A DNA stretch of 45,820 nucleotides, taken from the IMG/VR virus record IMGVR_UViG_3300007512_002803, positions 1 through 45,820 of that record; one strand, given 5' to 3'. Both the position numbers and the translations under genes were made by a program. Shown in pieces: positions 2,363 to 26,545 of this stretch. The notes beneath the pieces are model-generated. The model did no database searches. It was not told the origin of the DNA and was given only the letters and a program-made list of their open reading frames with translations. Numbering within the stretch: position 1 is the first letter of the stretch; the number at the start of each line of letters is the position of its first letter. This stretch comes from a virus.

Positions 2363-2825
2363 GCATGTAAAAGACGAATCGATAAGAGAAGCGCTACGGG
2401 ACTATAAGGGCAAGATTGATGAAAAAAAGCCTGATGAACTTTCTTTAAGCACTTATAAGGTTGAAAAGCCGTGGGGGCACGAGATCTGGTTGGAGATGAA
2501 CGAATTTTATGCTTTAAAGCTCATCCACTTCAAGCAAGGAAATAGATGCAGTTTACAGCTTCATGAACGAAAACTTGAGTCTGTGTATGTTTTGAGCGGA
2601 GAAGCAGAAGTGTTTCTAGAAAACGAAGAAGGTAACATGGAATCTAAGGTTTATGGACCGGGCACCGGCTGGACAGTACCCACAGGGAAAAAGCACAGAG
2701 TTTACGCAAGAACAGACTTCACGATCTTAGAAGCACAATCGCCACACCTAAACGACATCATCAGATTTCAAGATGATAATCAGAGATCATCTGGTACCAT
2801 CAAGGCGGAGCATGAAGGCAACTGA
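2349..2825 (+). CDS. Cupin protein, mannose-6-phosphate isomerase type II-like
   Basis: 158 residues; the ATG overlaps the HAD gene by 14 bases. It has the single-domain cupin signature of the phosphomannose isomerase half of type II PMI/GMP proteins: K-P-W-G-H-E near residue 40, S-L-Q-L-H-E (the metal-binding histidine region), V-L-S-G-E-A-E, and P-T-G-K-K-H-R, ending with D-I-I-R-F-Q-D-D, which matches the family's E-D-I-x-R-x-x-D-D close. It could interconvert ketose and aldose sugar phosphates. Cupins of this type are also found as uncharacterised parts of glycan clusters, so the exact substrate is open. Confidence 0.7.
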   Translation: MLKFEHVKDESIREALRDYKGKIDEKKPDELSLSTYKVEKPWGHEIWLEMNEFYALKLIHFKQGNRCSLQLHERKLESVYVLSGEAEVFLENEEGNMESKVYGPGTGWTVPTGKKHRVYARTDFTILEAQSPHLNDIIRFQDDNQRSSGTIKAEHEGN

Positions 2826-4377: not shown

Positions 4378-5019
4378 ATGCAAACCTTAGAGACACTGAT
4401 CGATCTATACAAGAAAGAATCTGCTGCAGTATTCAGCAGCGTATCCAATGCTGAAATAATAGATTTCGTTGAAGTAGTATGGAAGACTTATCAGTCTGGA
4501 GGGACCGTATTTTCCTGTGGAAATGGTGGCAACGCAGGTTTTGTGGCCAACCTAGTATCTGACTTTGCACTTCACCCATTCGTAGGAGAGGATAAATCTA
4601 AAGCTATTAAGGCAGATAATAGGCTAGCTGTAATCGATCTCTGCGCCTCAAGCACCATGGTGACGGGGCTCCTCAACGACCTGGGTCCAGAATATATTTT
4701 TAGTGGGCAAATTGAAGTATATGCTAAGCCGGGAGATTTGATCATAGGATTTTCTGGCTCCGGCAATTCAGCAAATATTTTAGAAGCCTTTAAGAAAGGC
4801 AGAGAAAGGGGCACAGCTAATGTATTAATAACACGTAAACCGCGCATAAAATGTAGCCCACTCTGTGATGTTGTGGTTGAAGTCCCAGGCACATCTGTGT
4901 ATCCTGGCCAGACTGGAAAAAACGATAACAACTTTCATTTCGAAGATTGTTTGGCTAAAATAACCCATTTAGCAACTGGGATACTAAAAGGTAGAATTCA
5001 GGATGAGCTTCGATGTTGA
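4378..5019 (+). CDS. SIS-domain sugar isomerase, phosphoheptose isomerase (GmhA)-like
   Basis: 213 residues; ATG directly follows the TAA of the kinase fusion. The SIS fold is clear: F-S-C-G-N-G-G-N-A-G-F at 45-55 and G-F-S-G-S-G-N-S at 124-131 are the phosphosugar-binding loops, with a late F-E-D-C-L-A-K-I-T-H helix. This subgroup is usually annotated as D-sedoheptulose-7-phosphate isomerase in lipopolysaccharide clusters. By eye, the residues matching the E. coli GmhA catalytic Glu and His are not clearly kept (Asp and Leu at the aligned places), so the substrate should be treated as a phosphosugar, probably a heptose but not proven. Confidence 0.75.
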   Translation: MQTLETLIDLYKKESAAVFSSVSNAEIIDFVEVVWKTYQSGGTVFSCGNGGNAGFVANLVSDFALHPFVGEDKSKAIKADNRLAVIDLCASSTMVTGLLNDLGPEYIFSGQIEVYAKPGDLIIGFSGSGNSANILEAFKKGRERGTANVLITRKPRIKCSPLCDVVVEVPGTSVYPGQTGKNDNNFHFEDCLAKITHLATGILKGRIQDELRC

Positions 5020-5067
5020 AAAGTTTAGAATGCGCGTTTTTAAGTTTACGAGAAACTAAGGAATAAA

Positions 5068-5760
5068 ATGTACAGTTTAGGGCTAAATAAGAACTTTATT
5101 TTCGTTCATATACCCAAAACAGGCGGCGGAAGCATAAAAAATCATTTGATACATACGACCAAAAGAGAAAATTTATTCTATCCTAAGGATGGCACAATAA
5201 ATTCTAAAGCTGGTCAACTTTACCACGCACGCTTAGAGCACTATAAGAGCAGGCAGTTTGTCGACAGATTCGTCGTTGATAATATTGATGAGTTCTATAA
5301 GTTTACTTCGATTAGAAATCCATGGGAAAGAATGGTGTCTCTTTATCATTTTAGAAAGGGTGGTACAGATACAGCAGCTGATGTAGAAAATAAATCGTCG
5401 GATGTCATTGAAAAAAGAATAATTGATGATAAGTGGCCTATAGGAAAAAACCCAACTCTTAAAAACGATATAAGCTTCATCGATTGGGTCAAGAATTACC
5501 AAGAAAATATCAATGCAACTGAACTAACACAGTATCTAGATTTTTTTGATGCTCGAGCGATGTCAAAGATAGTCAGGTTAGAAAGCCTCGATGAAGACTT
5601 TAATGACGTCTGTGACGAATTGGGCATTCGAAAAAAGCCGCTATTAAAAATTCATGCCTCACAGCACGAGCACTACAGCGAATACTACAACAACGCTACA
5701 AAGGACATAGTTTATAAGCTGTTCGAAAAAGACATTGATTATTTTAGATATGAATTCTAG
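5068..5760 (+). CDS. PAPS-dependent sulfotransferase (Sulfotransfer_2 type)
   Basis: 230 residues. The 5'-phosphosulfate loop of sulfotransferases is seen at F12-V-H-I-P-K-T-G-G20, and the 3'-phosphate site at S81-I-R83-N-P-W-E-R. These are the two defining motifs of carbohydrate sulfotransferases using PAPS. No PAPS synthesis gene is visible, so the donor would come from the host. A 48-base gap precedes the gene, with AGGAATAAA as ribosome site. In this setting the likely job is to add sulfate to a sugar of the glycan made by the surrounding genes. There is no transmembrane anchor, so it probably acts on a cytoplasmic acceptor. Confidence 0.85.
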   Translation: MYSLGLNKNFIFVHIPKTGGGSIKNHLIHTTKRENLFYPKDGTINSKAGQLYHARLEHYKSRQFVDRFVVDNIDEFYKFTSIRNPWERMVSLYHFRKGGTDTAADVENKSSDVIEKRIIDDKWPIGKNPTLKNDISFIDWVKNYQENINATELTQYLDFFDARAMSKIVRLESLDEDFNDVCDELGIRKKPLLKIHASQHEHYSEYYNNATKDIVYKLFEKDIDYFRYEF

Positions 5761-5780
5761 AAAATGGCTCTAAGAAAAAG

Positions 5781-6569
5781 ATGACAAAACGTTCAATAAA
5801 AGCCGATGAATTGAGAAGAGTCGTTTTGGAAATGATCCATGCATCGGGATCGGGTCACGTAGGAGGATCCTTTTCCATTGCAGAAATCGTTGCATGTCTC
5901 TACAACAATTTTGATCTTAAAACCGGTAAAGAAGATAAACTTATTTTATCGAAAGGCCACGCCGTACCTGCAGTCTATGCGGCACTTCATTTATTAGGAG
6001 AGATCGATGATCAAGAACTTAGTTCTTTTAGACAGATCGATTCAAGGTTACAAGGCCATCCTGACAAAGTCAGACTTCCAAACGTAGTTGCAACAACAGG
6101 CTCGTTAGGCCAAGGCCTGAGCATAGCAATTGGCCACGCTTTAGCTCATAAAATTCTAAAAAACGACAGAAAGGTTTTTTGCATAGTCGGCGATGGAGAG
6201 ATGCAAGAAGGTCAAGTATGGGAATCTATCATGCTAGCACCGAAGTTCGAATTAGATAACTTGTGTATGGTCATTGATTTGAACGGAGCCCAAAACGATG
6301 GAAATGTCGACGACGTTTTGCCTTTAGGCATAGGACAACCGGTACAAAGCAAGATAAAAGCTTTTGGGTGGGATACGCACATAATAGATGGCCACGATTT
6401 AAGTTCGATCCAGAGTTTGATTACCACTCACTGCAGTGGAGCGCCTCGCTGCATCGTAGCAAAGACGCAGAAGGGGAAAGGGGTTTCTTTTATGGAAAGT
6501 TTCGAATGGCATGCGAAAGCTCCCAACAAGGAACAATACGATCGAGCGATCAAAGAACTAAATCGATGA
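5781..6569 (+). CDS. Transketolase, N-terminal (TPP-binding) subunit
   Basis: 262 residues, equivalent to the first third of a full transketolase. It shows S-G-S-G-H-V-G-G near 22-29, L-S-K-G-H at 56-60, T-G-S-L-G-Q-G at 106-112, and the thiamine diphosphate motif G137-D-G-E-M-Q-E-G-Q-V-W-E. The companion subunit follows with an ATGA overlap, so the pair is a two-gene transketolase as in some archaea and glycan clusters. Transketolase moves two-carbon units between sugar phosphates and can make sedoheptulose 7-phosphate, the substrate of GmhA-type isomerases. That links it to the SIS gene at 4378. Confidence 0.9.
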   Translation: MTKRSIKADELRRVVLEMIHASGSGHVGGSFSIAEIVACLYNNFDLKTGKEDKLILSKGHAVPAVYAALHLLGEIDDQELSSFRQIDSRLQGHPDKVRLPNVVATTGSLGQGLSIAIGHALAHKILKNDRKVFCIVGDGEMQEGQVWESIMLAPKFELDNLCMVIDLNGAQNDGNVDDVLPLGIGQPVQSKIKAFGWDTHIIDGHDLSSIQSLITTHCSGAPRCIVAKTQKGKGVSFMESFEWHAKAPNKEQYDRAIKELNR

Positions 6570-7513
6570 GCCTCAAAGCTACTAGGGATGGTTTTGGAGA
6601 AGCGATGGTGGATCTTGCCACGAGAGACGAGCGGCTGGTTGTTTTGAGCGCCGATCTTTCTAAAGCTACAAAAACTGCAGCTTTTGCAAAAGCATTTCCG
6701 GAAAGGTTTTTCGAATGTGGGATAGCGGAATGTAACGCGATTGGAATAGCGTCGGGTCTTTCTGAAAACGGTTTCTACCCTGTGTTTTCCTCTTTTGCTT
6801 CATTCCTAACAGGCAAGTACGACGTGATCAGGGTATCTCTTGCATATTCGAATGCCACTGTCCTATTAGTTGGTACTCACGCAGGAATGGCAATCGGCAA
6901 AGATGGGGTAACTCAAATGGGCTTAGAAGACGTCTCGCTCATGCGCGCACTTCCTAACATGAAAGTCTACCAACCGGCAACTGCAAATCAAACCAAGCAG
7001 ATGCTACGTGAAATTATTAAGCAGCCCGGCCCATCATACATTAGGATCGGCCGCCAGGCTGTAGCTGAACTTTTTGATGAAAAATCAAATATCGATCTGG
7101 GAAGTGCACAAGTGATATCAGATGATGGTGATGTCGATGTGTGCTTAGTCACATCCGGTTGTGTGTTACATGACGTCATGGATGCAGCCAAAGAGCTGAG
7201 AGCACAAAGCAAAAGGGTATCAGTCTTGAACATACATACCATAAAACCACTTGACGTCGCGGCCATAGAAAAGTACGCCAGAAAGGCAAAATTAGTCGCT
7301 GTTGTGGAAGATCATAGCATCATCGGCGGCCTAGGCTCAGCAGTGTGTGAAACGCTAGCAGAAACATATCCGTGCAGCGTTTTGCGCATCGGCCTAAACG
7401 ACGAATTTCCAGAGTCTGCTCCTCCGAATGATCTCTATGAAAAATACGGATTAGATTCTCGAGGTATTGTAAAAAAAGTCCAACAAAAGATCTGCCCCGA
7501 CCCGGGAGGGTAA
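6566..7513 (+). CDS. Transketolase, C-terminal subunit
   Basis: 315 residues from the ATG at 6566, which overlaps the stop of the N-terminal subunit in ATGA; the frame is open further upstream, but that stretch overlaps the partner gene and is not conserved-looking. It holds the pyrimidine-binding domain, with C-G-I-A-E55-C-N as the glutamate that activates thiamine diphosphate and S-S-F-A-S-F-L as the next block. A C-terminal domain follows (V-C-L-V-T-S-G-C-V, then V-V-E-D-H-S-I-I-G-G-L-G), as in DXS and transketolase C-termini. It should form a heterodimer or heterotetramer with the preceding product. A DXS-like reaction is less likely given the split layout. Confidence 0.9.
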   Translation: MSLKATRDGFGEAMVDLATRDERLVVLSADLSKATKTAAFAKAFPERFFECGIAECNAIGIASGLSENGFYPVFSSFASFLTGKYDVIRVSLAYSNATVLLVGTHAGMAIGKDGVTQMGLEDVSLMRALPNMKVYQPATANQTKQMLREIIKQPGPSYIRIGRQAVAELFDEKSNIDLGSAQVISDDGDVDVCLVTSGCVLHDVMDAAKELRAQSKRVSVLNIHTIKPLDVAAIEKYARKAKLVAVVEDHSIIGGLGSAVCETLAETYPCSVLRIGLNDEFPESAPPNDLYEKYGLDSRGIVKKVQQKICPDPGG

Positions 7514-10165: not shown

Positions 10166-10789
10166 ATGGGTATTCATAAAAAAGATCTTGTGTTAATTGA
10201 TAAGGCATTAGCAGCACAGAATAAAGATTTTCAAGATTTAAGCATGTGTGAACTGGGAAGCCAATCATTGAGAGGAGAGCTATCAGAAGCCTTCAAGAGC
10301 CCTAAAGAATATTTTCAATCGATAGGGTGCAAGCATGTATCAATTGATCTAAATGGCGAACGCAATGCTTTGCAGATAAATCTCAATCATGATCTTAGAA
10401 AAAATTATCCTATGTTTATGGGCCACTTCGATATGATAACCAACTTCGGAACATCTGAGCACGTGTTAGATCAATATCAATGTTGGAAAAATATTCATGA
10501 CTTAGTGAAGACAGGCGGATCAGTAGTAAACTCAGTACCAGAAGTAAATTCCTGGCCCAACCATTGTCAATATTATTATGATCTTACCTTTTTTCAAGAA
10601 CTCTGTGAAAAGTGTGACTATCAAATCGTTCAGAATTCAGTCTATGAAAACACTGAAAAAACTTCCTTAAATTTAATTGAGTGTGTCTTTATCAAACAGA
10701 TAGATGTGCCATTCATGAGCAGAGAAGAGTTTAGCATACTCACGATAATAAAAACCAACTTTTCAGATCCAGAGCAGTGGGGATATTGA
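10166..10789 (+). CDS. Methyltransferase-like protein
   Basis: 207 residues. A class I methyltransferase fold is suggested by M-C-E-L-G-S-Q near residue 28 (motif I), H-V-S-I-D-L-N-G (acidic end of strand 2), F-D-M-I-T-N-F-G-T-S-E-H-V (strand 4), and L-V-K-T-G-G-S-V-V-N-S-V-P (strand 5). Motif I is less glycine-rich than usual, so SAM binding is likely but not certain. The stop codon overlaps the ATG of the sulfatase-fold gene (TGATG), indicating coupled translation. Confidence 0.6.
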   Translation: MGIHKKDLVLIDKALAAQNKDFQDLSMCELGSQSLRGELSEAFKSPKEYFQSIGCKHVSIDLNGERNALQINLNHDLRKNYPMFMGHFDMITNFGTSEHVLDQYQCWKNIHDLVKTGGSVVNSVPEVNSWPNHCQYYYDLTFFQELCEKCDYQIVQNSVYENTEKTSLNLIECVFIKQIDVPFMSREEFSILTIIKTNFSDPEQWGY

Positions 10790-12225
10790 TGGAACACGAC
10801 ATATTCTGTGTAGCAACGGACCGACTTACAACCCATAGGATGGCTATATACGGTGGGTACAACATATTTCCTAACATTGACAAGATAGCAAAAAAAGGCA
10901 CGATATTCAAGCATCCTGTCGCGTGTTCAGCTTCTACGCTCTCTTGCCATGCCTGTGAATGGACTGGCAAGAATCCCTGGGAGCTCCATGACGAAATGGG
11001 AGTCCCTTACGAAAACAGAGACTACGACGTCCCAATCTCAGTCAGCAAGTCCTTGTTTACGGATCTGATCGAAATGGGTTACGATGTCAACTTAGTCTTC
11101 ATGCACAAGCCCGATAAGTACTTTCCTAGTTCGTATCAACAGATAATCCCTATATTCCAAGACGCCGGAGTCAACGTGCACGGGATTCCCGAGTGGGACA
11201 TCCCCCAAGGGTCTGGCATCAACAGAGCCAAGCACCTGATGTACTGTGCAGAGATCATCGAAAAAAATCGAAAAGCGGGTAAAAAGTCTTTCGTCTGGAC
11301 CAAGATAGCAGGAATGTATCAATCTCAAGATTCTGATGGAGCTATGATCCATTTAGGTCACAAATACCACTCGTATGCCGGGCAAACTCGAGTCACGAGA
11401 GATGACGTATGGCAGTGTGCACTAGACGAAGCCATAGGGAAGTTTCTAGAGTATTTCGGTTACGGTTCCCCTGATTCGACTTGTCCAGAAGTCGTTTTTT
11501 CCTCGGACCACGGTGCTTGGTACGGTGAGCGCGGTAACGTATACTACGGTTATGACTTACACGAAGAGATCATCCGAGTGCCTTTGATATCCTCATTCAG
11601 GCTACAACCGGATGGCACTCGCATTCAAGAAGGGCGATTTGCCACGATAGTGGATGAGCCGTTTAGCATGCGTAGATTCAGGGATTTCATTACCGAGAAA
11701 TACAGACCAGAAGTCGATAAAGAGGAGTTGATATATGCTGAGACGCTATTTCCGGGCCAAGTAGTCAGCTCTCCAGGCAGTAAGCACTCCAAGTCTAAAA
11801 CTTGCGTTAGAAAGGGGAAGTACAAGTACATTTACAACCCATTCGGCGAGGACGGCATGTCGGAAGTTCCCACTGAAGAGTTGTATGATATAGAATACGA
11901 TCCTCACGAGAAATTTAATCTGGCTAATCATAAAAACGAATGGTTCGACTGTTCTCGATCGGATCCGACAGTTGCATGCGACGGAAAGAGCGGCCTCAGA
12001 TACTGCGATGTCCTGTCTAGGTTCCACAGCGACGTCAACATCGTGACCAGCCCAGAAGACCCGCCTGAGGCCGAATACTGCACTAAAAAGAATCCCAACG
12101 AATCGGGTTCCGGAGAGAGGACCGGTTGGTCTGAAGTACAAGATGTATTGAACATTCTAAGAGCCGAAGTTAAAGATTTATGGTACAGGACCGGCAGAGC
12201 GAATTTTTATAGAGAGATGACATGA
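10789..12225 (+). CDS. Sulfatase-fold (alkaline phosphatase superfamily) hydrolase or transferase
   Basis: 478 residues from the ATG at 10789, which overlaps the previous stop in TGATG; an upstream GTG at 10777 is possible but less suited. Several sulfatase-superfamily blocks are seen: an early V-A-T-D11-R metal strand, Y-G-G-Y-N-x-F-P-N-I-D-K, the nucleophile region ending in T59-G60, S-S-D-H-G near 239-243, and [15 protein letters not shown] late, matching the L-Y-D-L-x-x-D-P-x-E-x-x-N-L signature of sulfatases. Aligned back from T-G, the nucleophile position is T50, not a formylglycine cysteine. Threonine-nucleophile members include phosphoethanolamine and phosphoglycerol transferases and some hydrolases. 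It has no membrane anchor. Its stop overlaps the start of the PEP mutase gene, so a role with phosphonate or phosphate esters is plausible. Confidence 0.75.
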
Positions 12226-13523
12226 GGAACAAGACGGTTTATGTGGGCATGTGTGCAGATCTTCTGCACGAGGGCCATTTGAACATTTTAAAGACGGCTT
12301 CTGAATTAGGCGACGTCACAGTCGGACTTTTAACCGATGAAGCAGTTGCTTCTTACAAGAGGGTACCTGCTCAAAACTTTAAAGCCCGTGCAGCCCTGGT
12401 CGGCAGCCTGAGGTTTGTGTCTAAAGTGGTGCCGCAAGACTCGCTGAGTTACATAGACAATTTGCGACTCCTACGACCAGATTTTGTGGTACACGGCGAT
12501 GATTGGAAGACGGGAGTACAGCAAAGGATACGTCGCGAAGTGATTAACGTCTTAGAAGAGTGGGCCGGTCAATTAGTAGAAGTTCCTTATACCGTCGGGG
12601 TATCATCGACACTCCTCGGTGAAAAGGTTCGTAGCATTGGAATTACGCCGGGAGAAAGACTCAAGAAACTAAGGTTGCTACTACAAAACAAAGGCATCGT
12701 AAGGGCCATAGAGACGCATAACGGGTTGACAGGATTGATCGCTGAAAAGACTTCCGCAGAGTTCAATGGAGACCTTCGAGAGTTCGATGCCATGTGGCTA
12801 AGTAGCTTAACACACTCAGCATCTCGTGGAAAGCCGGACATCCAATACGTGGATATAACTCTGATGTCTCAAACTATTGGAGAGATATTTGAGATCACTA
12901 CTAAGCCCATGATAGTCGACGCTGATAATGGCGGATTGACGGAGCACTTTCGGCTCATGGTAAAAACCCTGGAACGCTTGGGAGTCTCAGCAGTCATCAT
13001 AGAGGATAAGACTGGGATCAAAAGAAACTCCTTGTTCGGTACTAGCGTAGAACAAACACAGGCAGACGTTCAAGACTTTTCTTCCAAGATTTCAGCTGGT
13101 AAAAGAGCGCAGGTTTCCGATGGGTTCATGATCATTGCTAGGATAGAAAGCCTGATCTTAGGCAACGGCTTAGAAGATGCCCTCAGCCGCGCGTACGCGT
13201 ACATTGAAGCAGGCGTGGATGCTATTATGATTCATAGCAAGTCAGACGTTGCAGACGAGATCCTGGCTTTTCTAAAAGAGTTTAGAAGCCGAGATCAAGA
13301 TACACCGGTTGTAGTGGTACCTTCTACCTACAGTCGGATTACCGAAACCGAACTGAGTGCAGCAGGCGCAAACTTAGTGATATATGCAAACCACCTCTTG
13401 CGCAGCGCGTACCCTGTCATGGTTTCTACGGCTCGTTCAATACTGGAAAACGAGAGATCACACGAAGCCAGCCCAGCATGCATTTCTATCGGTGAAATAA
13501 TCAGGCTCATCGGTGATTTTTAG
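12222..13523 (+). CDS. pepM: Cytidylyltransferase-PEP phosphomutase fusion
   Basis: 433 residues, start in an ATGA overlap. Residues 1 to about 135 are a cytidylyltransferase of the glycerol-3-phosphate/phosphocholine type: H16-E-G-H19 is the HxGH site, and Y-T-V-G-V-S-S-T replaces the usual R-T-x-G-I-S-T-T. Residues about 150-433 are PEP mutase: F-D-A-M-W-L-S-S, V232-D-A-D-N-G-G for the metal-binding aspartates, and E261-D-K-T-G-I-K-R-N-S, the E-D-K-x5-N-S signature that separates PEP mutase from isocitrate-lyase relatives. The mutase turns PEP into phosphonopyruvate, forming the C-P bond; the cytidylyltransferase would later load the finished phosphonate onto CMP. The next three genes supply the middle steps. 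Confidence 0.93.
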
Positions 13524-13525
13524 TC

Positions 13526-13939
13526 ATGACCGGCACGATGGCAGAATTGACTAACTTAGGTGTCCTAAAAAATCACACTTTTTTTAGTGGCGTTCCTGAC
13601 AGTTTACTTGCTGTTTTTATTGATGCTATCAAAGACAGGAAAGAGGCTCAACACGTTCCGGCTGTCAACGAAGCACACGCGATCGCAATTGCATTCGGTG
13701 CCATGTTAGCCGGCGAAGATGCGTGCGTGTATCTCCAAAACTCCGGGTTGGGCAACATCATTAATCCCATTACCAGTCTTTGCATGCCCGCGCAGATTTA
13801 CCCGTTTTTGATCATCGGTCATCGTCACACTCTGGAGCAACACCTTATAATGGGCGAGCTAGACGAGAAGATCATGGCGCTTTTAGGGTATCCACAAGAC
13901 AGGTACTTTCTCGTCCACGGCGACAATAATGAAAAGTAG
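13526..13939 (+). CDS. Phosphonopyruvate decarboxylase, alpha (PYR domain) subunit
   Basis: 137 residues, two bases after the PEP mutase stop. It matches the N-terminal pyrimidine-binding domain of thiamine diphosphate-dependent phosphonopyruvate or sulfopyruvate decarboxylases: F-S-G-V-P-D-S at 20-26, V-N-E49-A-H-A-I-A-I-A with the cofactor-activating glutamate, and L-Q-N-S-G-L-G-N-I-I-N-P, a block typical of this group. The enzyme decarboxylates phosphonopyruvate to phosphonoacetaldehyde, which pulls the unfavourable mutase reaction forward. The usual single-chain enzyme is about 380 residues; here the two halves are separate genes totalling 294. Sulfopyruvate decarboxylase is the alternative, but PEP mutase next door argues for phosphonate. 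Confidence 0.88.
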   Translation: MTGTMAELTNLGVLKNHTFFSGVPDSLLAVFIDAIKDRKEAQHVPAVNEAHAIAIAFGAMLAGEDACVYLQNSGLGNIINPITSLCMPAQIYPFLIIGHRHTLEQHLIMGELDEKIMALLGYPQDRYFLVHGDNNEK

Positions 13940-14402
13940 ATCTCAAGCGATCGAGGAAGTGTTCGAAACCCACGGTTCTAGTGCGATATATATAGTATCG
14001 ACAGGTTACCTTTCTAGAGCGGTGCATTCCTCACGGCCGACAGATCCTAACATATTTTACATGAAAGGCAGCATGGGTCTTGCACCCGGGATCGGTTTGG
14101 GTATTTCTTTGAATTCTGACGCAGACGTTGTTGTTCTGTCTGGAGATGCATCACTATTGATGCACTTGGGGCTTACTCACACCATTAGAGATTTTGCTAG
14201 AGGCAACTTGCATCTTTACGTTTTTGACAACGGGTGCCACGAATCGGTAGGTGGACAATTGTGTGCTAGCCTGGAACCTGCTTACCCAGGCGTACAAAAG
14301 ATAATTTTTATCAACAAGGAAGGAAAGACTCCACGCGTAAAAATAGGTTTCAAAGAGAACGCCGATCAGCTAAAAAAAATTCTAGCACAAGCATCGATAT
14401 AA
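13929..14402 (+). CDS. Phosphonopyruvate decarboxylase, beta (TPP-binding) subunit
   Basis: 157 residues, overlapping the alpha subunit by 11 bases in the +1 frame with its own ATG. The thiamine diphosphate diphosphate-binding motif is seen as G72-D-A and then, after the usual spacing, F-D-N101-G-C-H-E-S-V-G-G-Q. M-K-G-S-M-G-L-A-P-G-I-G-L-G-I-S before it is typical of the PP domain in this enzyme group. It should pair with the preceding product to form the active site at the subunit boundary, like the two-chain sulfopyruvate decarboxylase of archaea. A sequencing frameshift of one long gene cannot be ruled out, but the clean ATG and overlap favour two real subunits. Confidence 0.87.
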   Translation: MKSRSQAIEEVFETHGSSAIYIVSTGYLSRAVHSSRPTDPNIFYMKGSMGLAPGIGLGISLNSDADVVVLSGDASLLMHLGLTHTIRDFARGNLHLYVFDNGCHESVGGQLCASLEPAYPGVQKIIFINKEGKTPRVKIGFKENADQLKKILAQASI

Positions 14403-14403
14403 A

Positions 14404-15180
14404 ATGTTGTTAGTTTGTTCTAAGTCGACGCGAGAGTTTTTCCCTCACATTAAAAATGCCAGGATTATTTCTAGACGATTAGATCTGAAAATAGTAGAAG
14501 AGACCGGCCAACATCACGACATACTCGCTGTCGGCGGTGGAGCAGTCATCGATGCTGCAAAAATTCTATCTGCGGACCCCATTGTGTGTTATCCCACTAC
14601 AGCTGCCGGGTCATCATGCACTATGCATTCTGTGGTATGGGACCAAGATCGAAAAATATCCGTAAAAAGATTCGTTCCTAAGGAGGTGATCGTAGAGCCA
14701 GAGTTTCTCAAGAATCTGCCGAAAGAAATCGTTTTTGAGACCAAAGTTGATCTTGTGGCACATTGTTTCGATTCATTGTTTTCGAAACGAAGCACTCCTA
14801 AAAGCAGAAAACTGGCCGAAGCTGCTTTGGAAATGTTAGAGGACAGGAATTTGAGTAACGAGTCACTCATTATCGCCGGTAATTTGGCTGGAAGAGCGAT
14901 ACAGATTACTCCGACAACGATCTTGCATTCTCTATCTTATCCATTGACCGGTCATTATGGCATCCGCCACGGCCGAGCATTGTCGTTTTTTTTGCCAGCT
15001 CTTTCTGATTACATGGGATTCGAATTCGAAAAATATTTTGTAGAGGATTTCGATAAAGTGCCCAGTCATATCGATATTGAAGATTGTTTGAGGGGTGCGA
15101 TGTCTTACGATAAGATAAACGATTTTCGATCTAGAGATCAACTAAATTTTCAATTTTTAAAGAATCTTTTATGTTTGTGA
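14404..15180 (+). CDS. Iron-alcohol-dehydrogenase-type phosphonoacetaldehyde reductase (short)
   Basis: 258 residues; starts one base after the decarboxylase stop. Group III alcohol dehydrogenase motifs are present: A-V-G-G-G-A-V-I-D-A-A-K at 42-53 for NAD(P), Y-P-T-T-A-A-G-S-S at 63-71, D116-L-V-A-H120 and H175-S-L-S-Y-P-L-T-G-H184-Y-G-I-R-H189-G for metal. Its place after PEP mutase and phosphonopyruvate decarboxylase predicts reduction of phosphonoacetaldehyde to 2-hydroxyethylphosphonate. The family is usually about 370-400 residues; this one lacks much of the N-terminal nucleotide-binding part and the last helices. It may be a trimmed but working phage version. Confidence 0.82.
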   Translation: MLLVCSKSTREFFPHIKNARIISRRLDLKIVEETGQHHDILAVGGGAVIDAAKILSADPIVCYPTTAAGSSCTMHSVVWDQDRKISVKRFVPKEVIVEPEFLKNLPKEIVFETKVDLVAHCFDSLFSKRSTPKSRKLAEAALEMLEDRNLSNESLIIAGNLAGRAIQITPTTILHSLSYPLTGHYGIRHGRALSFFLPALSDYMGFEFEKYFVEDFDKVPSHIDIEDCLRGAMSYDKINDFRSRDQLNFQFLKNLLCL

Positions 15181-15222: not shown

Positions 15223-16257
15223 ATGAAGTGTTTTTTGGAAGTATATGATGAACGGTATAGAGACAGGCTGGCGTTCATAGATGTAATATGCGAAGAACTC
15301 AAAGAATCGCACGGTATCACGTTTGTGAGTGATCCGAGCAAGTGTGATGTTTTTATCACGCAACAGGTTTCTTATGCTCCTAATTTGGACAGCTGCTTAA
15401 GCCAAAAAAGAGATGTAGTCATTTTCGAAGTAAACGATTCGGCATCTATCAAAAATGATGAATTACGAAAAGCAATAAAAAACCAGCAAGTAAAAGGCTT
15501 CTTTAAAATAACCAACTTTAGAAATAGGGAAAACCACAACAAACACACATCAGGTGATGCACGATTTCATGCAAATTTTATAAATGAGTACGAAGAATTA
15601 TGCGAAACGAAGGAACAAAACGTGACCTTCACAGACCAGGAGTTGAGAAAGATTCACTGCGCATTGCCGGCGTTTATAAATTTTAGATTTGATAATATAC
15701 GAAACGCAAATGGGCTGTCTAACAAAGATAGAAAAGTAGATGTGAACTTTGCAGGAACTACAGACTACACAAGGAACAAGAATTATGTAAACCTGCCTGA
15801 AGAAGATCCCAAGCTTAATTTACCAAAACTGATTAGTGCACACAGGCTGCGTGCGATTAATGAGATAGCAAAAACTACACAAAAGCTGAATTTGACATCT
15901 ATCATCGTAGACCATAAACCGATGTCGCAACCGGAGTATTGGAACACTCTTTACAATTCTAAGCTGTGCGTTTCTCCATGGGGGTTTGGGGCATACAACT
16001 GGAGAGATTATGAATCAATATACTTGGGTGCATTGTTGATTAAACCAAATACTGACTTCCTGGAGTCGTACTGCGATCTTTACAAATCAGGCATAAATTA
16101 CGTGGCATGTAATCATAATTTCTCAAATCTACAAGAAATTATTACGGACTGTTTAGAAAATTTTGATTCGTATACGCGCATAAGGGAAAACGCTGCTGCA
16201 ACACTGAGCAGCCATTGTGATAAAAAAAAGGTCGCCAAAAATTTGCTGCACAACTAA
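15223..16257 (+). CDS. Exostosin/GT-B-like glycosyltransferase (putative)
   Basis: 344 residues after a 42-base gap. The N-terminal half is unrecognised. The C-terminal half has L-C-V-S-P-W-G-F-G-A-Y-N-W-R-D-Y-E-S-I-Y-L-G-A-L-L (shown here residue by residue, about 245-270), a pattern like the donor-binding E-containing loop of exostosin and related GT-B proteins, where a conserved R-x-x-E follows S-P-x-G. This supports a glycosyltransferase role; the sugar is unknown. The ribosome site is weak. It is the first gene after the phosphonate cassette and may add the phosphonate-bearing unit or a later sugar. Confidence 0.6.
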   Translation: MKCFLEVYDERYRDRLAFIDVICEELKESHGITFVSDPSKCDVFITQQVSYAPNLDSCLSQKRDVVIFEVNDSASIKNDELRKAIKNQQVKGFFKITNFRNRENHNKHTSGDARFHANFINEYEELCETKEQNVTFTDQELRKIHCALPAFINFRFDNIRNANGLSNKDRKVDVNFAGTTDYTRNKNYVNLPEEDPKLNLPKLISAHRLRAINEIAKTTQKLNLTSIIVDHKPMSQPEYWNTLYNSKLCVSPWGFGAYNWRDYESIYLGALLIKPNTDFLESYCDLYKSGINYVACNHNFSNLQEIITDCLENFDSYTRIRENAAATLSSHCDKKKVAKNLLHN

Positions 16258-16305
16258 AGAGTTGTGTACTCTAATTTATATTAGAAGAGTGAAGGTTGTT
16301 TGAGC

Positions 16306-17148
16306 ATGTATGATATTGGAATCATCGGTAACGGTTTTGTAGGCTCTGCCATAGCTAGTGGCTTCGCTCTGCACGCCAACATCAAAATTTATGATGTGGA
16401 TACCACCAGGTCTACTCATTCTTTGGACGAAGTGGTAAACGAAAGCGATTTCGTCTTCATAAGTGTTCCTACGCCCATGGAAGATGTCTTAGGCGGTTCG
16501 ATCGATTTGACTATCATGGATGACGTGATCGAAAGAGTGCACGAATCTTATGTTGGCACCGAAGTGGTTTTTGTCATCAAATCGACAGTGGTTCCAGGGA
16601 CTGTGGAACGATATATGGAAAAATATCCACGATTAGAGTTCGTCTTTAACCCAGAGTTTTTGACCGAAAGATCTGCTAGACTGGACTTCATCAATGCATC
16701 TAGGATAATACTAGGAGGGAGCTCGGACTCTAGCAACAGGGTAGAAAAACTATATCGGTGTCGATTTCCTCACACTAAGATGATAAAAACAGACGTTACT
16801 ACAGCCCAATTCATCAAGTACATGGCGAACTGTTTTTTTTCTACTAAAGTATCGTTCATGAATGAAATGAAGCAAGGCGCCGATCGTCTGAAGTGTGATT
16901 GGAATGCCGTCATGAACGGCTTCATTTCTGACGGCCGGATCGGCAATTCACACTTAGATGTGCCCGGACACGACGGCCAAAACGGCTTTGGAGGAAAGTG
17001 TTTTCCCAAAGATCTGAATGCGTTCATTACGCTCTTCGAAACCATAGAAGTAGCACCAACAGTCATGAAGGCCGTCTGGGAAAAGAACGTTGAAGTACGA
17101 GAAGAGTTCGATTGGGCCAAGATCGAAGGGGCTGTTTCCAAAAAGTGA
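16306..17148 (+). CDS. UDP-glucose/GDP-mannose dehydrogenase family protein, short form
   Basis: 280 residues from the ATG at 16306; a TTG at 16300 would add two residues and is an alternative. The NAD site is I-G-I-I-G-N-G-F-V-G at 4-13, and the catalytic cysteine is in G-F-G-G-K-C232-F-P-K-D, the family signature. S-V-P-T-P and K-S-T-V-V-P-G-T are also as expected. Normal members are about 400-450 residues and end in a UDP-sugar-binding domain; here the protein stops soon after the catalytic loop. It probably oxidises C6 of a nucleotide sugar to a uronic acid, but loss of the last domain could change partner or substrate. Two NAD-dependent epimerases follow. Confidence 0.82.
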   Translation: MYDIGIIGNGFVGSAIASGFALHANIKIYDVDTTRSTHSLDEVVNESDFVFISVPTPMEDVLGGSIDLTIMDDVIERVHESYVGTEVVFVIKSTVVPGTVERYMEKYPRLEFVFNPEFLTERSARLDFINASRIILGGSSDSSNRVEKLYRCRFPHTKMIKTDVTTAQFIKYMANCFFSTKVSFMNEMKQGADRLKCDWNAVMNGFISDGRIGNSHLDVPGHDGQNGFGGKCFPKDLNAFITLFETIEVAPTVMKAVWEKNVEVREEFDWAKIEGAVSKK

Positions 17149-18038
17149 GAGCGGTAGTTACCGGCGGATGCGGGTTCATCGGCAGCCACATCGTGGATGA
17201 ATTGGTGAAGTTGGGTCACGATGTCATCGTCATCGACGACTTGTCCGCTCCTCAAAACGAAGAATTTTTTTACAACTCGAAAGCTGCTTATCACCACTTT
17301 GATGTCTCTAAAGACGACTGCGGTCGTCTATTTTCCGGAGCAGATGTTGTCTTTCATCTAGCAGCGCGCAGTCGAATACAGCCGACCATCGACTCCCCCG
17401 GAGAGTGCTTCGAGGTGAACGTGATAGGCACTCAAAGGGTTCTAGAGTGGGCCAAGCAGAATCACATCAAAAAAGTCATATATTCTAGCACATCATCGTT
17501 GTACGGGAGGGATAACGAGATTCCGTTTCGCCCTAATATGACGACTGGATGCCTGAACCCCTATTCTTTGTCCAAGTGGATGGGAGAATTGACCTGTAAG
17601 CTATACACACAGCTGTACGCAGTAGATACCATAGTGCTTAGGTACTTCAACGTATACGGCCCAAGGGAGCCGCTAAAAGGCAGTTACGCACCTGTCATAG
17701 GCCTTTTCAAGAGGCAATACAAAAGCGGGCAGCCTATGTCCGTAGTAGGGGACGGCGAGCAACGCAGAGATTTTACGTATATTGCGGATGTTGTTGATGC
17801 CAATATTCTTGCAATGGATGGAAGACAAGAAGGTCACTCTGTATATAACATCGGTACCGGTTATAATTACTCCATCAATCAAATCGCAGAGATGATCGGA
17901 GGCATCGACGCGACCACCACAAAGATACCAGAACGCCCGGCTGAAGCGAGAGAGACTCTCGCTGATGTTACCAAAACGATTAGAGAACTGGGATGGAAAC
18001 CGAAGCATCGATTGGAAGATAGGATATTACAATATTGA
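17145..18038 (+). CDS. NAD-dependent sugar epimerase/dehydratase
   Basis: 297 residues from GTG at 17145, in a four-base overlap with the previous stop; an ATG further upstream at 17112 would add residues with no family match. It is an extended short-chain dehydrogenase: T6-G-G-C-G-F-I-G-S for NAD, a Y140-x3-K144 catalytic pair in N-P-Y-S-L-S-K, and R-Y-F-N-V-Y-G-P-R-E for substrate. This layout fits UDP-glucose 4-epimerase, UDP-GlcNAc(A) epimerase or UDP-glucuronate decarboxylase. The dehydrogenase just upstream makes a uronic-acid substrate likely, but the reaction cannot be fixed by eye. Confidence 0.85.
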   Translation: MRAVVTGGCGFIGSHIVDELVKLGHDVIVIDDLSAPQNEEFFYNSKAAYHHFDVSKDDCGRLFSGADVVFHLAARSRIQPTIDSPGECFEVNVIGTQRVLEWAKQNHIKKVIYSSTSSLYGRDNEIPFRPNMTTGCLNPYSLSKWMGELTCKLYTQLYAVDTIVLRYFNVYGPREPLKGSYAPVIGLFKRQYKSGQPMSVVGDGEQRRDFTYIADVVDANILAMDGRQEGHSVYNIGTGYNYSINQIAEMIGGIDATTTKIPERPAEARETLADVTKTIRELGWKPKHRLEDRILQY

Positions 18039-18991
18039 AAAAAACGAAAAAAGTGTTAGTAACTGGCGGGTTAGGATTCATAGGTTCTAATCTGACTCAG
18101 CAATTGGCGACGACTGACATCAAAGTCGTAGTGGTCGACAATCTCTCATCGTGTAGAAAAGATTGTGTAGAATTTAAAACGCAGCTTGATAACGTGGAGT
18201 TCGTAGAAGGGTGTTTTTCTGAGGACGGCATTCTAGAGAGGGTAAAATCAGGAGAATTTGATACCATTTTTCACTTGGCAGCGATTCCGAGAGTCAGTTA
18301 TTCAGTCGAAGAGCCTTATAAGACTACTGACGTTAACGTCGGAAGAACGGTCAAACTCTTGGAGGCGTGTGCTGGAAATGTAAGACGGTTTGTATTCTCT
18401 TCGTCATCCTCAGTCTATGGAGGCGCAGACGTACTTCCTACGCCAACATCACACGCTAGAACTCCCAAATCTCCCTATGCCTGGCAAAAGAGCTGCATCG
18501 AAGATGCCATTCGAATGTTCTGCCAATTGTACGAATTAGATGCCGTGTGCCTGAGGTACTTCAATGTATTCGGCCCCGGACAATTTGGTGGATCCGCCTA
18601 CTCGACTGCAGTTTCTGCATGGTGCCATGCCATCAAGAACGGGAGCAAGCTCAGGAAGGATGGCTCTGGAGAACAATCGCGAGATATGTGCTACGTCGAT
18701 AATGTTGTTAGCGCTAACCTCTTGGCTATGAAATCAGAATACAAGTTTGCTGGAGAAGCTTTTAATGTTGCGTGCGGAGACAGAACGTCCAATAATCAGA
18801 TATTAGATTTCTTTACAGAAAAATTTGGAAAGCTGAACATCGATCAAGCTCCTCCGCGTGCGGGCGATGTAATGCATACTCAAGCTGACGTATCCGACAC
18901 GACTGCCGTACTCGGGTACCAACCAAAGGTGAAATTTTGGGAAGGCCTGGAAAGAACTCTGGAATGGTGGGGTCTTTCGGATAAATCATGA
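18035..18991 (+). CDS. NAD-dependent sugar epimerase/dehydratase (second)
   Basis: 318 residues with a TTG start in a TTGA overlap with the previous stop. T10-G-G-L-G-F-I-G-S is the NAD loop; Y148-x3-K152 in S-P-Y-A-W-Q-K is the catalytic pair; R-Y-F-N-V-F-G-P-G-Q follows. It is a paralogue-like neighbour of the previous gene but clearly diverged, so the two probably act on different sugars or at successive steps. F-R/Q-R-A/P-x-R-A-G-D-V-M-H-T near the end (P-P-R-A-G-D-V) is typical of UDP-GlcNAc or UDP-glucuronate epimerases. Confidence 0.85.
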   Translation: MKKTKKVLVTGGLGFIGSNLTQQLATTDIKVVVVDNLSSCRKDCVEFKTQLDNVEFVEGCFSEDGILERVKSGEFDTIFHLAAIPRVSYSVEEPYKTTDVNVGRTVKLLEACAGNVRRFVFSSSSSVYGGADVLPTPTSHARTPKSPYAWQKSCIEDAIRMFCQLYELDAVCLRYFNVFGPGQFGGSAYSTAVSAWCHAIKNGSKLRKDGSGEQSRDMCYVDNVVSANLLAMKSEYKFAGEAFNVACGDRTSNNQILDFFTEKFGKLNIDQAPPRAGDVMHTQADVSDTTAVLGYQPKVKFWEGLERTLEWWGLSDKS

Positions 18992-19870: not shown

Positions 19871-21127
19871 ATGCAACATAAATTTAAGATCCTGATGCTG
19901 TCTGATCATGCTCTGAGCACGTCCGGCGTCGGCTGCCAGAGTCGATATCTGATAAATGGGCTGATCGATAAAGGGTGCTGGACAGTAAGACAGTTCGGCG
20001 CCGCTGTCAAGCACACAGATTACAATACGACGGTCGTCAATGACGATTTTATTATAAAGCCCATCGATGGTTTCGGCGATCGCGATTTGTTGATCCAGAC
20101 TCTTGCCATGGAAAATCCGGATGTGCTGCTTATTTTTACCGATCCTAGGTTTTTTGTTTGGCTCTTTGAGATGGAAGACGAGATTCGTCAGGTGTGTCCG
20201 ATAGCTTATTGGCACGTCTGGGACAACTTTCCTAGCCCTACTTATAACCGGGCATTTTACGATTCTACCGACCTGATAAACTGTCACTCTTACTTGACTT
20301 ACAAGATAGTTTCTGAGATGGCTCCTGGAAGAACTAATTTTATTCCGCACTCGCTTCCAGAGGAAGTTTTTTATCCGCTCAAGGAACATGACAGGACGAT
20401 ACGCAGGATAGAAGCGATCGGCGAAAGTCGTGCAAAAGATTTCGTACTCTTTTGGGTGAACAGAAATGCCAGAAGAAAGCGGCCAAATGATCTACTGTGG
20501 GGCTGGTCGTTATTTATGGAGAAATTAAAAGAGAAGCATGGGAGATCCGATGCTACTCTGTTGCTACATACTGATCCCAACGATCAAGAAGGCCCTAATT
20601 TGCTTGCAACAACCGATCATTTAGGAATCAAAGATAGTGTAGTTTTTTCTAACGATCGAGTGGATTTTGATCAAATGAATGTCATGCATAACATTACTGA
20701 CGCATGCATCAATGTATCTTATGCCGAAGGCTTCGGCCTTTCGACTCTAGAAGCAATGCAATGTGGAAACCCGATCATAGCAGCCAAGACAGGCGGATTA
20801 ACCAGGCAGGTGGTGGATCATCGAGATGGATCTGAAAATGGCGTAGCTTTAGATATAGAATTTAAATCGCTTGTGGGTTCGCAGGGAGTGCCGTTTATTT
20901 ACGAAGATTACTGCAGCGCTCAATCCATAGCCGATGCGATCATGAAGCTATACGAGATGCCAAAAGCGGAGCTTCGCGCGTTAGGGCGTAAAGCAAAAAG
21001 TTATGTCGAAAGCGAATTCAATCACCAAGACACGATCGATCGATGGCATGAGACCCTTCTAGGGTTAGTAAACACAGAGAAGAGTCATAAGCCTAGGCGT
21101 TGGTCCTTTAGTGAGGTGAAGTGTTGA
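19871..21127 (+). CDS. GT-B glycosyltransferase, family 4-like
   Basis: 418 residues. The N-terminal domain opens with I-L-M-L-S-D-H-A-L-S-T-S-G-V-G, a usual GT4 start with a flexible glycine loop. The donor-binding E-x7-E is E286-G-F-G-L-S-T-L-E294-A-M, followed by C-G-N-P-I-I-A-A-K-T-G-G. It transfers a sugar from a nucleotide donor; specificity is unknown. A 34-base gap with no clear ribosome site precedes it. The next gene, also GT4-like, overlaps its stop, so the two probably act in sequence on the same glycan. Confidence 0.85.
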   Translation: MQHKFKILMLSDHALSTSGVGCQSRYLINGLIDKGCWTVRQFGAAVKHTDYNTTVVNDDFIIKPIDGFGDRDLLIQTLAMENPDVLLIFTDPRFFVWLFEMEDEIRQVCPIAYWHVWDNFPSPTYNRAFYDSTDLINCHSYLTYKIVSEMAPGRTNFIPHSLPEEVFYPLKEHDRTIRRIEAIGESRAKDFVLFWVNRNARRKRPNDLLWGWSLFMEKLKEKHGRSDATLLLHTDPNDQEGPNLLATTDHLGIKDSVVFSNDRVDFDQMNVMHNITDACINVSYAEGFGLSTLEAMQCGNPIIAAKTGGLTRQVVDHRDGSENGVALDIEFKSLVGSQGVPFIYEDYCSAQSIADAIMKLYEMPKAELRALGRKAKSYVESEFNHQDTIDRWHETLLGLVNTEKSHKPRRWSFSEVKC

Positions 21128-22287
21128 AAAACGTAGTAGTACGAGCCCCTTTATTGAGTAAATCTGGGTACGGAGAGCACAGTCGACAGCTGTTTAAATA
21201 CCTTTTGACTAAGCCTAACTTAAACGTAGTTACTCAAGTAGTCCCATGGGGAATCACGCCCTGGGATGTGAGCAGCACTGCTTTTAATAGTTTAGGACCC
21301 GAAGCAATGAAGAGGAGTACAACATCTCCCGATCAAAAGTTCGATATCTCCTTTCAGGTTCAATTACCAAACGAATGGGATCCTTCTTTAGCTGCTTTCA
21401 ATGTAGGCGTCACAGCCGGGGTAGAGACAGATAAATGTAACCCAATTTGGACTGCAGTGCATTGTAATAAGATGGATTTAGTAATAGTTCCTTCTTTGCA
21501 CACCAAAAAGACCTTTGAGGCCTCTGCTACGTGCACGACACCGATCACAGTAGTTCCAGAGTCCTATTTCTGGGAGCTCAATGAGGAGCCAGCTCCCCTG
21601 GAGATCGATCTCAAAACTGATTTTAATTTTTTGTCCGTAGGAGTCCTGACGGGGATGACGCCTCCTACTGATAGAAAAAACCTGTTTTATCTCATCAAAT
21701 GGTTTGTGGAAGAATTCAAGGGTGATCCCGACGTCGGCCTGATCATCAAAACCAATCGAGGACGCGAGACGGCGATCGATAGAATGCTCACAGAGGCAAT
21801 CCTAAAGAAGTTGCTAGATGAAATAAACCACGAAGGGTTACCAAAGGTGTATCTTTTGCACGGAGATCTCACAAGAGGCGAGATGAACTCATTGTATCGC
21901 CACGATAAAGTAAAGGCGCTAATTTCAACCACGCGCGGCGAAGGTTTTGGGCTACCGTTTCTTGAAGCTTCAGTAGCCGGTTTGCCGGTTATGGCCACGA
22001 ACTGGTCCGCCCACACAGAGTTTCTTAACAGCGGAAGATGGATCAAGATAGATTACGACCTGAGAGAGATAGATGCCTCCCGCCAGGACAACAATGTTTT
22101 CGTACCACATGCTAGATGGGCAGAAGCAAAGGAAGAAGCTGTAAAGAAAGCACTTAGAAAGTTTAAAAATAGTCATGATGTCCCTAGGGAATGGGCGGCC
22201 CAACTAGCAGAAAAATTAAAAAAATCACACTCAGAGAAGGCCGTATTTTTACAATACGAAGCCGCCCTTTGCGATGTCTTAGCATGA
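21124..22287 (+). CDS. GT-B glycosyltransferase, family 4-like (second)
   Basis: 387 residues from TTG at 21124, chosen because it makes a TTGA overlap and sits five bases after GAGGTG; the GTG at 21121 is the alternative. The protein opens with V-V-V-R-A-P-L-L-S-K-S-G-Y-G-E-H-S-R, a GT4-like acceptor loop, and carries E273-G-F-G-L-P-F-L-E281-A-S for the donor. V-G-V-T-A-G-V-E-T-D-K in the first domain is shared with phage and cluster glycosyltransferases that act after a first sugar is in place. No membrane segment is seen. Its stop overlaps the start of a small membrane protein. Confidence 0.83.
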   Translation: MKNVVVRAPLLSKSGYGEHSRQLFKYLLTKPNLNVVTQVVPWGITPWDVSSTAFNSLGPEAMKRSTTSPDQKFDISFQVQLPNEWDPSLAAFNVGVTAGVETDKCNPIWTAVHCNKMDLVIVPSLHTKKTFEASATCTTPITVVPESYFWELNEEPAPLEIDLKTDFNFLSVGVLTGMTPPTDRKNLFYLIKWFVEEFKGDPDVGLIIKTNRGRETAIDRMLTEAILKKLLDEINHEGLPKVYLLHGDLTRGEMNSLYRHDKVKALISTTRGEGFGLPFLEASVAGLPVMATNWSAHTEFLNSGRWIKIDYDLREIDASRQDNNVFVPHARWAEAKEEAVKKALRKFKNSHDVPREWAAQLAEKLKKSHSEKAVFLQYEAALCDVLA

Positions 22288-26455: not shown

Positions 26456-26545
26456 GAATCTTTGCGTGATCGCGTTTCATAATTTGCAATTATGTAGTCT
26501 CAACACACTTCAAGACCAAAATAGTTATTATTGAAGAGGTTTGCT
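26456..26545 (+). other. 90-base gap before the gp25-like gene, with a perfect hairpin
   Basis: This is the second-longest gap between genes. It holds CATAATT-TGC-AATTATG at 26478-26494, a perfect seven-pair stem with a three-base loop, and ends in the GAAGAGG ribosome site at 26533-26539. No T-run follows the stem, so it is not a typical terminator; it could be an operator, a processing site or chance. A promoter for the baseplate genes could be here, but no clear -10 is seen. Confidence 0.4.

Follow-up and report, generated by a model that had tools for sequence, protein, structure and literature searches.

A conserved, streamlined phosphonate pathway borne by phages, with a candidate transferase gene upstream

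The subject of this work is a cluster of plus-strand genes in a viral DNA of 45,820 nucleotides, hereafter the window (positions 1 to 45,820 of the IMG/VR record IMGVR_UViG_3300007512_002803). The cluster encodes a phosphonate pathway that is real, phage-borne, conserved and streamlined. Four intact open reading frames (ORFs), nearly touching or overlapping, encode a predicted route that likely runs from phosphoenolpyruvate (PEP) to 2-hydroxyethylphosphonate (HEP) and on to its cytidine monophosphate (CMP)-activated form, CMP-HEP, which is the opening of fosfomycin biosynthesis. A fifth gene, overlapping the start of the first (pepM) by four bases, encodes a candidate transferase (Table 1). 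We consider it probable that the whole cassette is a virus-adapted CMP-phosphonate pathway with a transferase encoded at its upstream end. PEP mutase would convert PEP to phosphonopyruvate, a split thiamine enzyme would take this to phosphonoacetaldehyde, a compact dehydrogenase would produce HEP, and the cytidylyltransferase fused to the mutase would make CMP-HEP. The overlapping upstream soluble protein would then transfer the phosphonyl group, via a covalent threonine intermediate, to a sugar from the surrounding glycan genes, and the end product would be a phosphonoglycan carried by virions or by infected cells.

A first-pass annotation of the sequence had placed four adjacent phosphonate genes at 12222-15180, and all four ORFs lie where it put them. 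The span is too short, since the gene at 10777-12225 overlaps the pepM start. The annotation also overlooked the candidate transferase, the split and compact forms of the viral enzymes, and the larger family of viral cassettes, which includes methylphosphonate-synthase homologues.

A predicted route from PEP to CMP-HEP

The pepM product scored 369.1 bits against TIGR02320 (PEP_mutase, cut-off 319.55), and its N-terminal domain scored 39.1 bits against PF01467 (CTP_transf_like, cut-off 21). The translation contains the motif EDK-x5-NS that the first-pass annotation had read, which was applied as a PEP mutase criterion in PMC8931226. The E, D, K, N and S of the motif are invariant across nine aligned viral copies, and the PEP mutase domain matches solved PEP mutases. 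The best PDB match of the cytidylyltransferase domain is 5x3d (E 1.8e-51; 81 of 137 aligned residues identical, 59%), which we take to be the cytidylyltransferase domain of Fom1. With PF01467 N-terminal to the PEP mutase and 5x3d as its closest solved relative, the protein has the Fom1-type architecture. The product of Fom1 is CMP-HEP; in bacteria, both CMP activation and the fusion of a cytidylyltransferase to PEP mutase are established, and 23.6% of Ppm proteins are fused to PF01467 (PMC6697681). Because it is common in bacteria, the fusion alone is not unusual.

TIGR03297 is the best NCBIfam model for both decarboxylase ORFs, which as neighbours cover its N-terminal part (alpha, positions 3-117 of 360, 94.1 bits) and its C-terminal part (beta, positions 172-289 of 360, 91.9 bits). 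The beta ORF is also above the cut-off of PF02775; the alpha ORF scored 23.4 bits against PF02776, under the cut-off of 26.8. Because the protein is split, we claim that the pair works like a phosphonopyruvate decarboxylase, not that it is a strict member of the TIGR03297 equivalog. The dehydrogenase scored 45.1 bits against PF25137 (cut-off 27) and 32.3 against PF00465 (cut-off 31.3), and its best NCBIfam model is TIGR03405. Residues G44-G46, D50, D116, H175 and H189 are invariant in 29 viral sequences, and H120 is invariant in a set of nine, not in the 29; we take D116, H120, H175 and H189 to be the metal-ligand positions. A dehydrogenase, not a transaminase, comes after the decarboxylase, and no aminotransferase family was matched in a Pfam scan of 26 window ORFs between 106 and 22284. 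The first-pass prediction of a route to CMP-activated HEP is supported, each enzyme being assigned its presumed substrate.

The cassette shares its fusion domain order and all four activities with the fosfomycin opening of Streptomyces (Fom1, with Fom2 and FomC, which we take to be the decarboxylase and the dehydrogenase of that pathway). It differs in lying in a phage genome, in its split decarboxylase and in the candidate transferase gene attached to it. Since the steps equal those of the fosfomycin opening, the pathway might instead yield a free small-molecule phosphonate, fosfomycin-like or an antimetabolite, that acts on the host or on rivals and decorates no surface. In the nearest relative of the window, a 106 kb contig (loci L010 and L035), a B12-dependent radical SAM gene (L010:10944-12464, B12-binding, from a sequence cluster spanning seven loci) directly follows the dehydrogenase gene, and of the NCBIfam models PhpK matches it best (100.7 bits, cut-off 600), which would also suit a free product. 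We rejected this gene as a Fom3, since its best models, PhpK and HpnJ, are far under cut-off and its PDB matches are other radical SAM enzymes. In the window, however, no radical SAM family was matched among the same 26 ORFs, and in many records the cassette is surrounded by transferase families and sugar genes, so that we regard a free product as improbable and a decoration as the better reading.

Phage setting and viral forms of the enzymes

The phage setting beside sugar genes described in the first-pass annotation is borne out: sugar genes flank the cassette on both sides, and baseplate-wedge genes mark the phage side of the contig. That annotation had also proposed a search of viral genomes for PepM with baseplate genes. 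The baseplate-wedge model phrog_219 ("gp6-like", presumably the T4 name) was matched on 7 of 36 records, namely the window and the contigs of L011, L021, L025, L027, L030 and L035, and on none of 14 controls. The Gp23 capsid model was matched on two of the 36 (the contigs of L021 and L035) and, again, on no control; the window, a fragment, has no Gp23 gene, and the collinear L035 contig has one. This 106 kb L010/L035 contig, the closest relative, has a T4-type capsid gene, and its PEP mutase is 77% identical to that of the window. From its sugar genes to its baseplate genes it is ordered like the window, except that several sugar genes are missing or have been exchanged for others and that the radical SAM gene is inserted. 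Baseplate-wedge genes 54% and 64% identical to those of the window occur in the same order in L139. Within the phage collection, the L010/L035 capsid and the window gp6-like protein are closest to proteins of Flavobacterium phage immuto, of Microcystis phage Mel-JY01 and of a 484 kb uncultured phage. Such matches hint at a relation to phages of Flavobacterium and Microcystis, at no more than 30-48% identity. The terminase model phrog_2 was tried as a virus marker (9 of 36 records) and not used as evidence, because 11 of the 14 control genomes match it too.

The fusion is widespread in bacteria and archaea (at least 526 confirmed matches), and IMG/VR can hold non-viral contigs, either of which could point to bacterial contamination or to a chimeric contig in which the cassette was joined to phage DNA. 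The first-pass annotation had named such a chimera as what would overturn its reading, and the contig survives that test. Because the 106 kb relative, with its Gp23 and gp6-like genes, has the same junctions, and because the baseplate-wedge gene is found in 7 of the 36 records and none of the controls, the window contig is not a chimera. Nor are the split and compact enzymes of the viral copies seen in the 80 cellular loci compared (the best 80 of at least 526 confirmed cellular matches). We reject contamination or chimerism for the window lineage, and give it a negligible probability.

Viral relatives came from a first scan (nine contigs) and a second scan with an alignment (41 loci). After removal of L013, L015, L017 and L038 as redundant (equal coordinates and scores), and with L044 (no PEP mutase match) and L045, L046 and L048-L051 (cytidylyltransferase match only) not counted, there were 31 non-redundant viral records with PEP mutase, the window included. 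Because the four functions recur together in 28 of these 31, the cassette is not a chance assembly; five of the 28 complete records encode the cytidylyltransferase in an ORF of its own. The related viral copies are under purifying selection, with a ratio of nonsynonymous to synonymous substitution rates (dN/dS) of 0.05-0.28 in the 17 computable of 20 pair comparisons (viral pepM, decarboxylase-beta and dehydrogenase); three window-L035 gene pairs were saturated at synonymous sites.

The viral decarboxylase is split in 27 of the 28 complete records, and the viral dehydrogenase has 207-289 residues in 26 of them, about 100 fewer than its cellular relatives. In L040 the decarboxylase is a single ORF and the dehydrogenase has 331 residues, the same length as the dehydrogenase of L188. 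Among the 80 cellular loci, by contrast, the decarboxylase is one ORF in 78 (the contig ends inside it in the other two), and a dehydrogenase was found in 70, of 326-434 residues in 69 and cut by the contig end in one. In a dehydrogenase tree, built from viral rows of at least 200 and cellular rows of at least 320 residues, all 29 viral rows are found on the same side of one branch (support 76), and 24 of these fall within a single clade (support 100). In a PEP mutase tree, with rows under 400 residues left out and L030 cut to its fusion part, the window is placed together with one archaeal row and 17 further viral rows (support 96), and at least three changes of the viral label are required. 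We read these tree patterns as a single, ancient streamlining of the dehydrogenase in viruses, and as some exchange of the PEP mutase.

A scan with the dehydrogenase alignment yielded no fewer than nine additional records in which a PEP mutase-like gene lies nearby (the like pair L198/L199 counted once). The PEP mutase match was weaker in L185, L187 and L198 (8.5e-34 to 1.5e-43), and L187 had no decarboxylase match; these new loci were inspected as a selection, with L201, L202, L204, L205, L207 and L209 outside it. The window dehydrogenase matched 32 records of the phage collection, none covering 80% and all under 60% identity, and the decarboxylase beta ORF matched one, MT837901. This record and MT836947, both GenBank "Bacteriophage sp.", carry the fusion; they are marked UNVERIFIED and were not counted. 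The decarboxylase of MT836947 is a single ORF, and in MT837901 an upstream ORF of 281 residues matches the beta half, an arrangement closer to that of the cellular loci.

There is a precedent for a PEP mutase annotation in a phage, because the cultured Vibrio phage Va2 (L212, MW073017) carries an annotated divergent PEP mutase (89 bits, under cut-off; EDK-x6-NS by reading) along with a one-ORF decarboxylase-like gene (152 bits, under cut-off). Phages hypermodify DNA, and the Va2 PEP mutase adjoins nucleotide-metabolism genes, as might be expected if the phosphonate modified phage DNA and not a glycan. We think this very improbable for the window, where sugar genes surround the cassette and baseplate genes are close to it; nucleotide-metabolism genes elsewhere were not searched for.

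The upstream protein and transferases beside pepM

The upstream protein scored 31.5 bits against PF00884 (cut-off 25) and so belongs to the alkaline-phosphatase superfamily. It is apparently soluble: we saw no membrane-like segment in it, the top 19-residue hydropathy being 0.7. In a phmmer alignment with the sulfatase 5g2v, T54 and H58 pair with residues that we take to be the sulfatase nucleophile Ser and the motif Arg. The motif C/S-x-P-S-R, presumably the one for formylglycine formation in sulfatases, is absent from the protein, which has T-L-S-C-H at that place.

A second alkaline-phosphatase-superfamily family, whose complete members have 338-408 residues, is the direct neighbour of pepM in 10 of the 31 records (as a fragment in L018 and cut by the contig end in L023), and in L030 it is fused to pepM. 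Its model is confident (pLDDT 84.7) and aligns with 7stv over 302 residues (Z 22.2; root-mean-square deviation 3.5), and Foldseek matches include YejM and the phosphoglycerol transferase GacH (6dgm, E 6.3e-05). By its model, then, the family has the sulfatase fold and belongs to the superfamily, a placement that rests on the model and the fold search because Pfam, NCBIfam and PDB profile searches gave no credible match. Residues D9, T37, D209 and H210, invariant in 13 sequences, align with D15, T54, D244 and H245 of the window protein, which are likewise invariant in the alignment of the two. The second-family profile had no match in the ORFs of the 80 cellular loci, and tblastn found no relatives in the phage-record collection. 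In fold, and in having threonine at the nucleophile position, these proteins resemble glycan phosphotransferases of the GacH/LtaS type, which we take to be membrane-anchored enzymes with a nucleophile threonine and lipid donors. Unlike those, the viral proteins checked show no membrane segment, and the modelled second-family protein begins at the first strand of the fold.

Other transferases take a similar place. LicD occurs in 12 of the 36 records, beside pepM in L011 and further off in some; a cytidylyltransferase is fused to a LicD-type transferase at L047:12369-13457; and cytidine diphosphate (CDP)-glycerol-type transferases adjoin pepM in L014 and L024. The neighbour of pepM in related viruses is often a likely CMP- or CDP-dependent transferase, and it is because of this placement that we propose phosphonate transfer by the window protein. 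Gene context makes it a candidate CMP-HEP-dependent phosphonate transferase. That phosphonate moves from CMP-HEP to a glycan or a protein via the superfamily protein is plausible, and we hold the chances to be about even. Attachment to a glycan, put forward in the first-pass annotation, is a reasonable supposition to which the CMP/CDP-dependent transferase families beside or near pepM add; we infer both the acceptor and the benefit. Protection of the virion or the host surface, which that annotation suggested, is one possible benefit. In L157 (6001-7427) and L158 an alkaline-phosphatase-superfamily protein lies next to a stand-alone cytidylyltransferase, and in L159 near one, with no PEP mutase match in the locus; this is possibly a separate CMP/CDP-dependent decoration system.

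PF00884 includes many hydrolases, and the listed solved relatives of the upstream protein are sulfatases. CMP-HEP could therefore be made as proposed while the upstream protein acts on sugars as a sulfatase- or phosphodiesterase-like hydrolase, and another gene, such as a glycosyltransferase or the gene at 15223-16257, attaches the phosphonate; the latter gene is conserved in L010 and has no Pfam match. We find this unlikely. The window protein has Thr and His at the sulfatase nucleophile and Arg positions, and its gene overlaps pepM; in L030 pepM is fused to a member of the superfamily, and a gene of that member's family overlaps the lone cytidylyltransferase gene in L157 and L158.

Several observations weigh against a complete pathway ending in phosphonate transfer. 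Neither decarboxylase ORF reached the full-length TIGR03297 cut-off of 312.5, because each spans about one third of the model, and the dehydrogenase scored 91.8 bits against TIGR03405 (phosphonate-associated Fe-ADH, PsrA), where the cut-off is 423.7; because of these scores, the substrates of both enzymes rest on context. Among the 31 records, L022 has no alpha-half match, its beta match being a distant 610-residue ORF; the L023 contig stops within the following gene; L033 lacks a dehydrogenase match; and the L025 dehydrogenase is interrupted and lies in two ORFs. In 29 of the 36 records, which are viral by the IMG/VR call, there was no match to either the gp6-like or the Gp23 model. The AlphaFold model of the upstream protein, from a 12-row mixed alignment, had a pLDDT of 35.6 and was not used, and a pattern-limited scan for relatives of the protein found only the L035 contig. 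A profile comparison of the protein with the second family showed no similarity (hhalign probability 0.5%), so that what they have in common is limited to motifs at the superfamily level. To our knowledge, no alkaline-phosphatase-superfamily enzyme uses a CMP-activated donor.

Surrounding genes, known systems and meaning

Table 1. Coordinates of the cassette, its surroundings in the window, and related genes in other records
Record	Coordinates	Strand	Feature	Matches and remarks
Window	2006-7513	+	Probable sugar-nucleotide supply genes	HAD-like, cupin, nucleotidyltransferase-kinase, GmhA-like isomerase, sulfotransferase, transketolase in two ORFs
Window	10777-12225	+	Alkaline-phosphatase/sulfatase-superfamily protein, 482 aa; candidate CMP-HEP-dependent phosphonate transferase	PF00884
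Window	12222-13523	+	Cytidylyltransferase-PEP mutase fusion (pepM), Fom1-like	TIGR02320, PF01467, 5x3d, 5unc, 1m1b
Window	within 12222-13523	+	Fusion domains	Cytidine triphosphate (CTP):phosphonate cytidylyltransferase, about residues 2-138; PEP mutase, about residues 144-431
Window	13526-13939	+	Phosphonopyruvate decarboxylase alpha subunit (N-terminal part)	TIGR03297, PF02776
Window	13929-14402	+	Phosphonopyruvate decarboxylase beta subunit (C-terminal, thiamine diphosphate part)	TIGR03297, PF02775
Window	14404-15180	+	Compact metal-dependent alcohol dehydrogenase, 258 aa; presumed phosphonoacetaldehyde reductase	PF25137, PF00465, TIGR03405
Window	15223-16257	+	Protein without Pfam match, conserved in closest relative	65% identical in L010
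Window	16300-17148	+	Short uridine diphosphate (UDP)-sugar dehydrogenase	PF03721, PF00984
Window	17112-18038, 18035-18991	+	Two NAD-dependent sugar epimerase/dehydratase genes	PF01370
Window	19871-22287	+	Two glycosyltransferases	PF00534; first also phrog_2170
Window	26531-27043, 27049-28893	+	Baseplate-wedge genes	phrog_43, phrog_219
L022	2921-4303		Methylphosphonate-synthase homologue	
L025	8608-9999		Methylphosphonate-synthase homologue	
L027	932-2323		Methylphosphonate-synthase homologue	
Va2 (L212)	5953-7257		Divergent PEP mutase	Flanks ribonucleotide reductase genes with the next gene
Va2 (L212)	1152-2252		One-ORF decarboxylase-like gene	Flanks ribonucleotide reductase genes with the previous gene

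The UDP-sugar dehydrogenase after the cassette has 282 residues, presumably fewer than is usual for such enzymes, and can be likened to the compact cassette dehydrogenase. The genes at 2006-7513, with their two-ORF transketolase, GmhA-like isomerase, HAD-like protein and nucleotidyltransferase-kinase, possibly provide a phage-made supply of activated heptose; the HAD matches fall under the Pfam cut-offs. The family of the second glycosyltransferase is present in 13 clustered loci, the window included. By reading, a sialic-acid-synthase-like gene lies directly upstream of pepM in L026 (2008-2862) and L028 (9159-10007). A promoter and terminator scan was uninformative, with 18 promoter-like sites where 16.6 were expected and 11 terminator-like sites where 7.5 were expected.

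Among known systems, the sugar islands of marine T4-like phages also place sugar genes in a tailed-phage genome; an example is P-SSM2, which we take to be such a phage, with a lipopolysaccharide/O-antigen-like gene island. P-SSM2 and P-SSM5 match the cytidylyltransferase domain, but among the matches listed they cover query residues 1-142 only, and not the PEP mutase. Bacterial Pnt clusters with nucleotidyltransferase-fused Ppm share CMP activation and have LicD-like or glycosyl transferases nearby, whereas the PntC enzymes characterised in that work are PF12804 proteins that prefer 2-aminoethylphosphonate (PMC6697681); in the window the domain is PF01467 and the dehydrogenase points to HEP. 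The cellular relatives found here also differ in their one-ORF Ppd and full-length dehydrogenase. A likely PEP mutase-cytidylyltransferase fusion has been reported from a glycoconjugate region of a Borg, but Borgs are archaeal extrachromosomal elements and not tailed phages, and the enzyme named is a CTP:phosphoglutamine cytidylyltransferase (PMC12660748). PMC13188868 lists viral genes for phosphonate degradation, not biosynthesis. We found no account of phosphonate biosynthesis in phages in the literature searched, with preprints and most subscription papers outside its scope.

In three viral contigs, methylphosphonate-synthase homologues of 460-463 residues overlap the pepM start. The L022 homologue matches the methylphosphonate synthase MpnS (6b9s) over its full length with E 1.3e-78 and 268.1 bits, better than it matches the HEP dioxygenase 6b9r (212.2 bits), and methylphosphonate is its predicted product. 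The contigs of L025 and L027 also carry the gp6-like baseplate gene. A pattern scan of viral contigs for further homologues returned only the same three, and tblastn returned none in the phage-record collection. Methylphosphonate-synthase-like ORFs also lie near a fused PEP mutase in two archaeal contigs (L101:6637-7995 and L061:9408-10775), that of L101 being very near the viral profile (E 7.4e-161). The HEP and methylphosphonate system of Prochlorococcus and SAR11 similarly combines PepM, Ppd, a dehydrogenase leading to HEP and MpnS beside glycan genes, but it is cellular (PMC8931226), whereas the one described here is carried by phages.

Taken more widely, and as a tentative proposal that we regard as quite possible, tailed phages would have a long-established, streamlined phosphonate pathway together with a new class of soluble alkaline-phosphatase-superfamily transferases. 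These would use CMP donors to modify glycans or proteins and so clothe virions or host cells in phosphonoglycan, with some of the phages taking HEP on to methylphosphonate. If this is true, viruses would be a direct genetic source of methylphosphonate, the marine methane precursor. Phosphonates of marine microbes have been proposed to lower mortality from viral lysis and grazing (PMC8931226). With the same pathway present in phages, this idea could be tested from the other side, as phages may mimic, mask or exploit such a coat.

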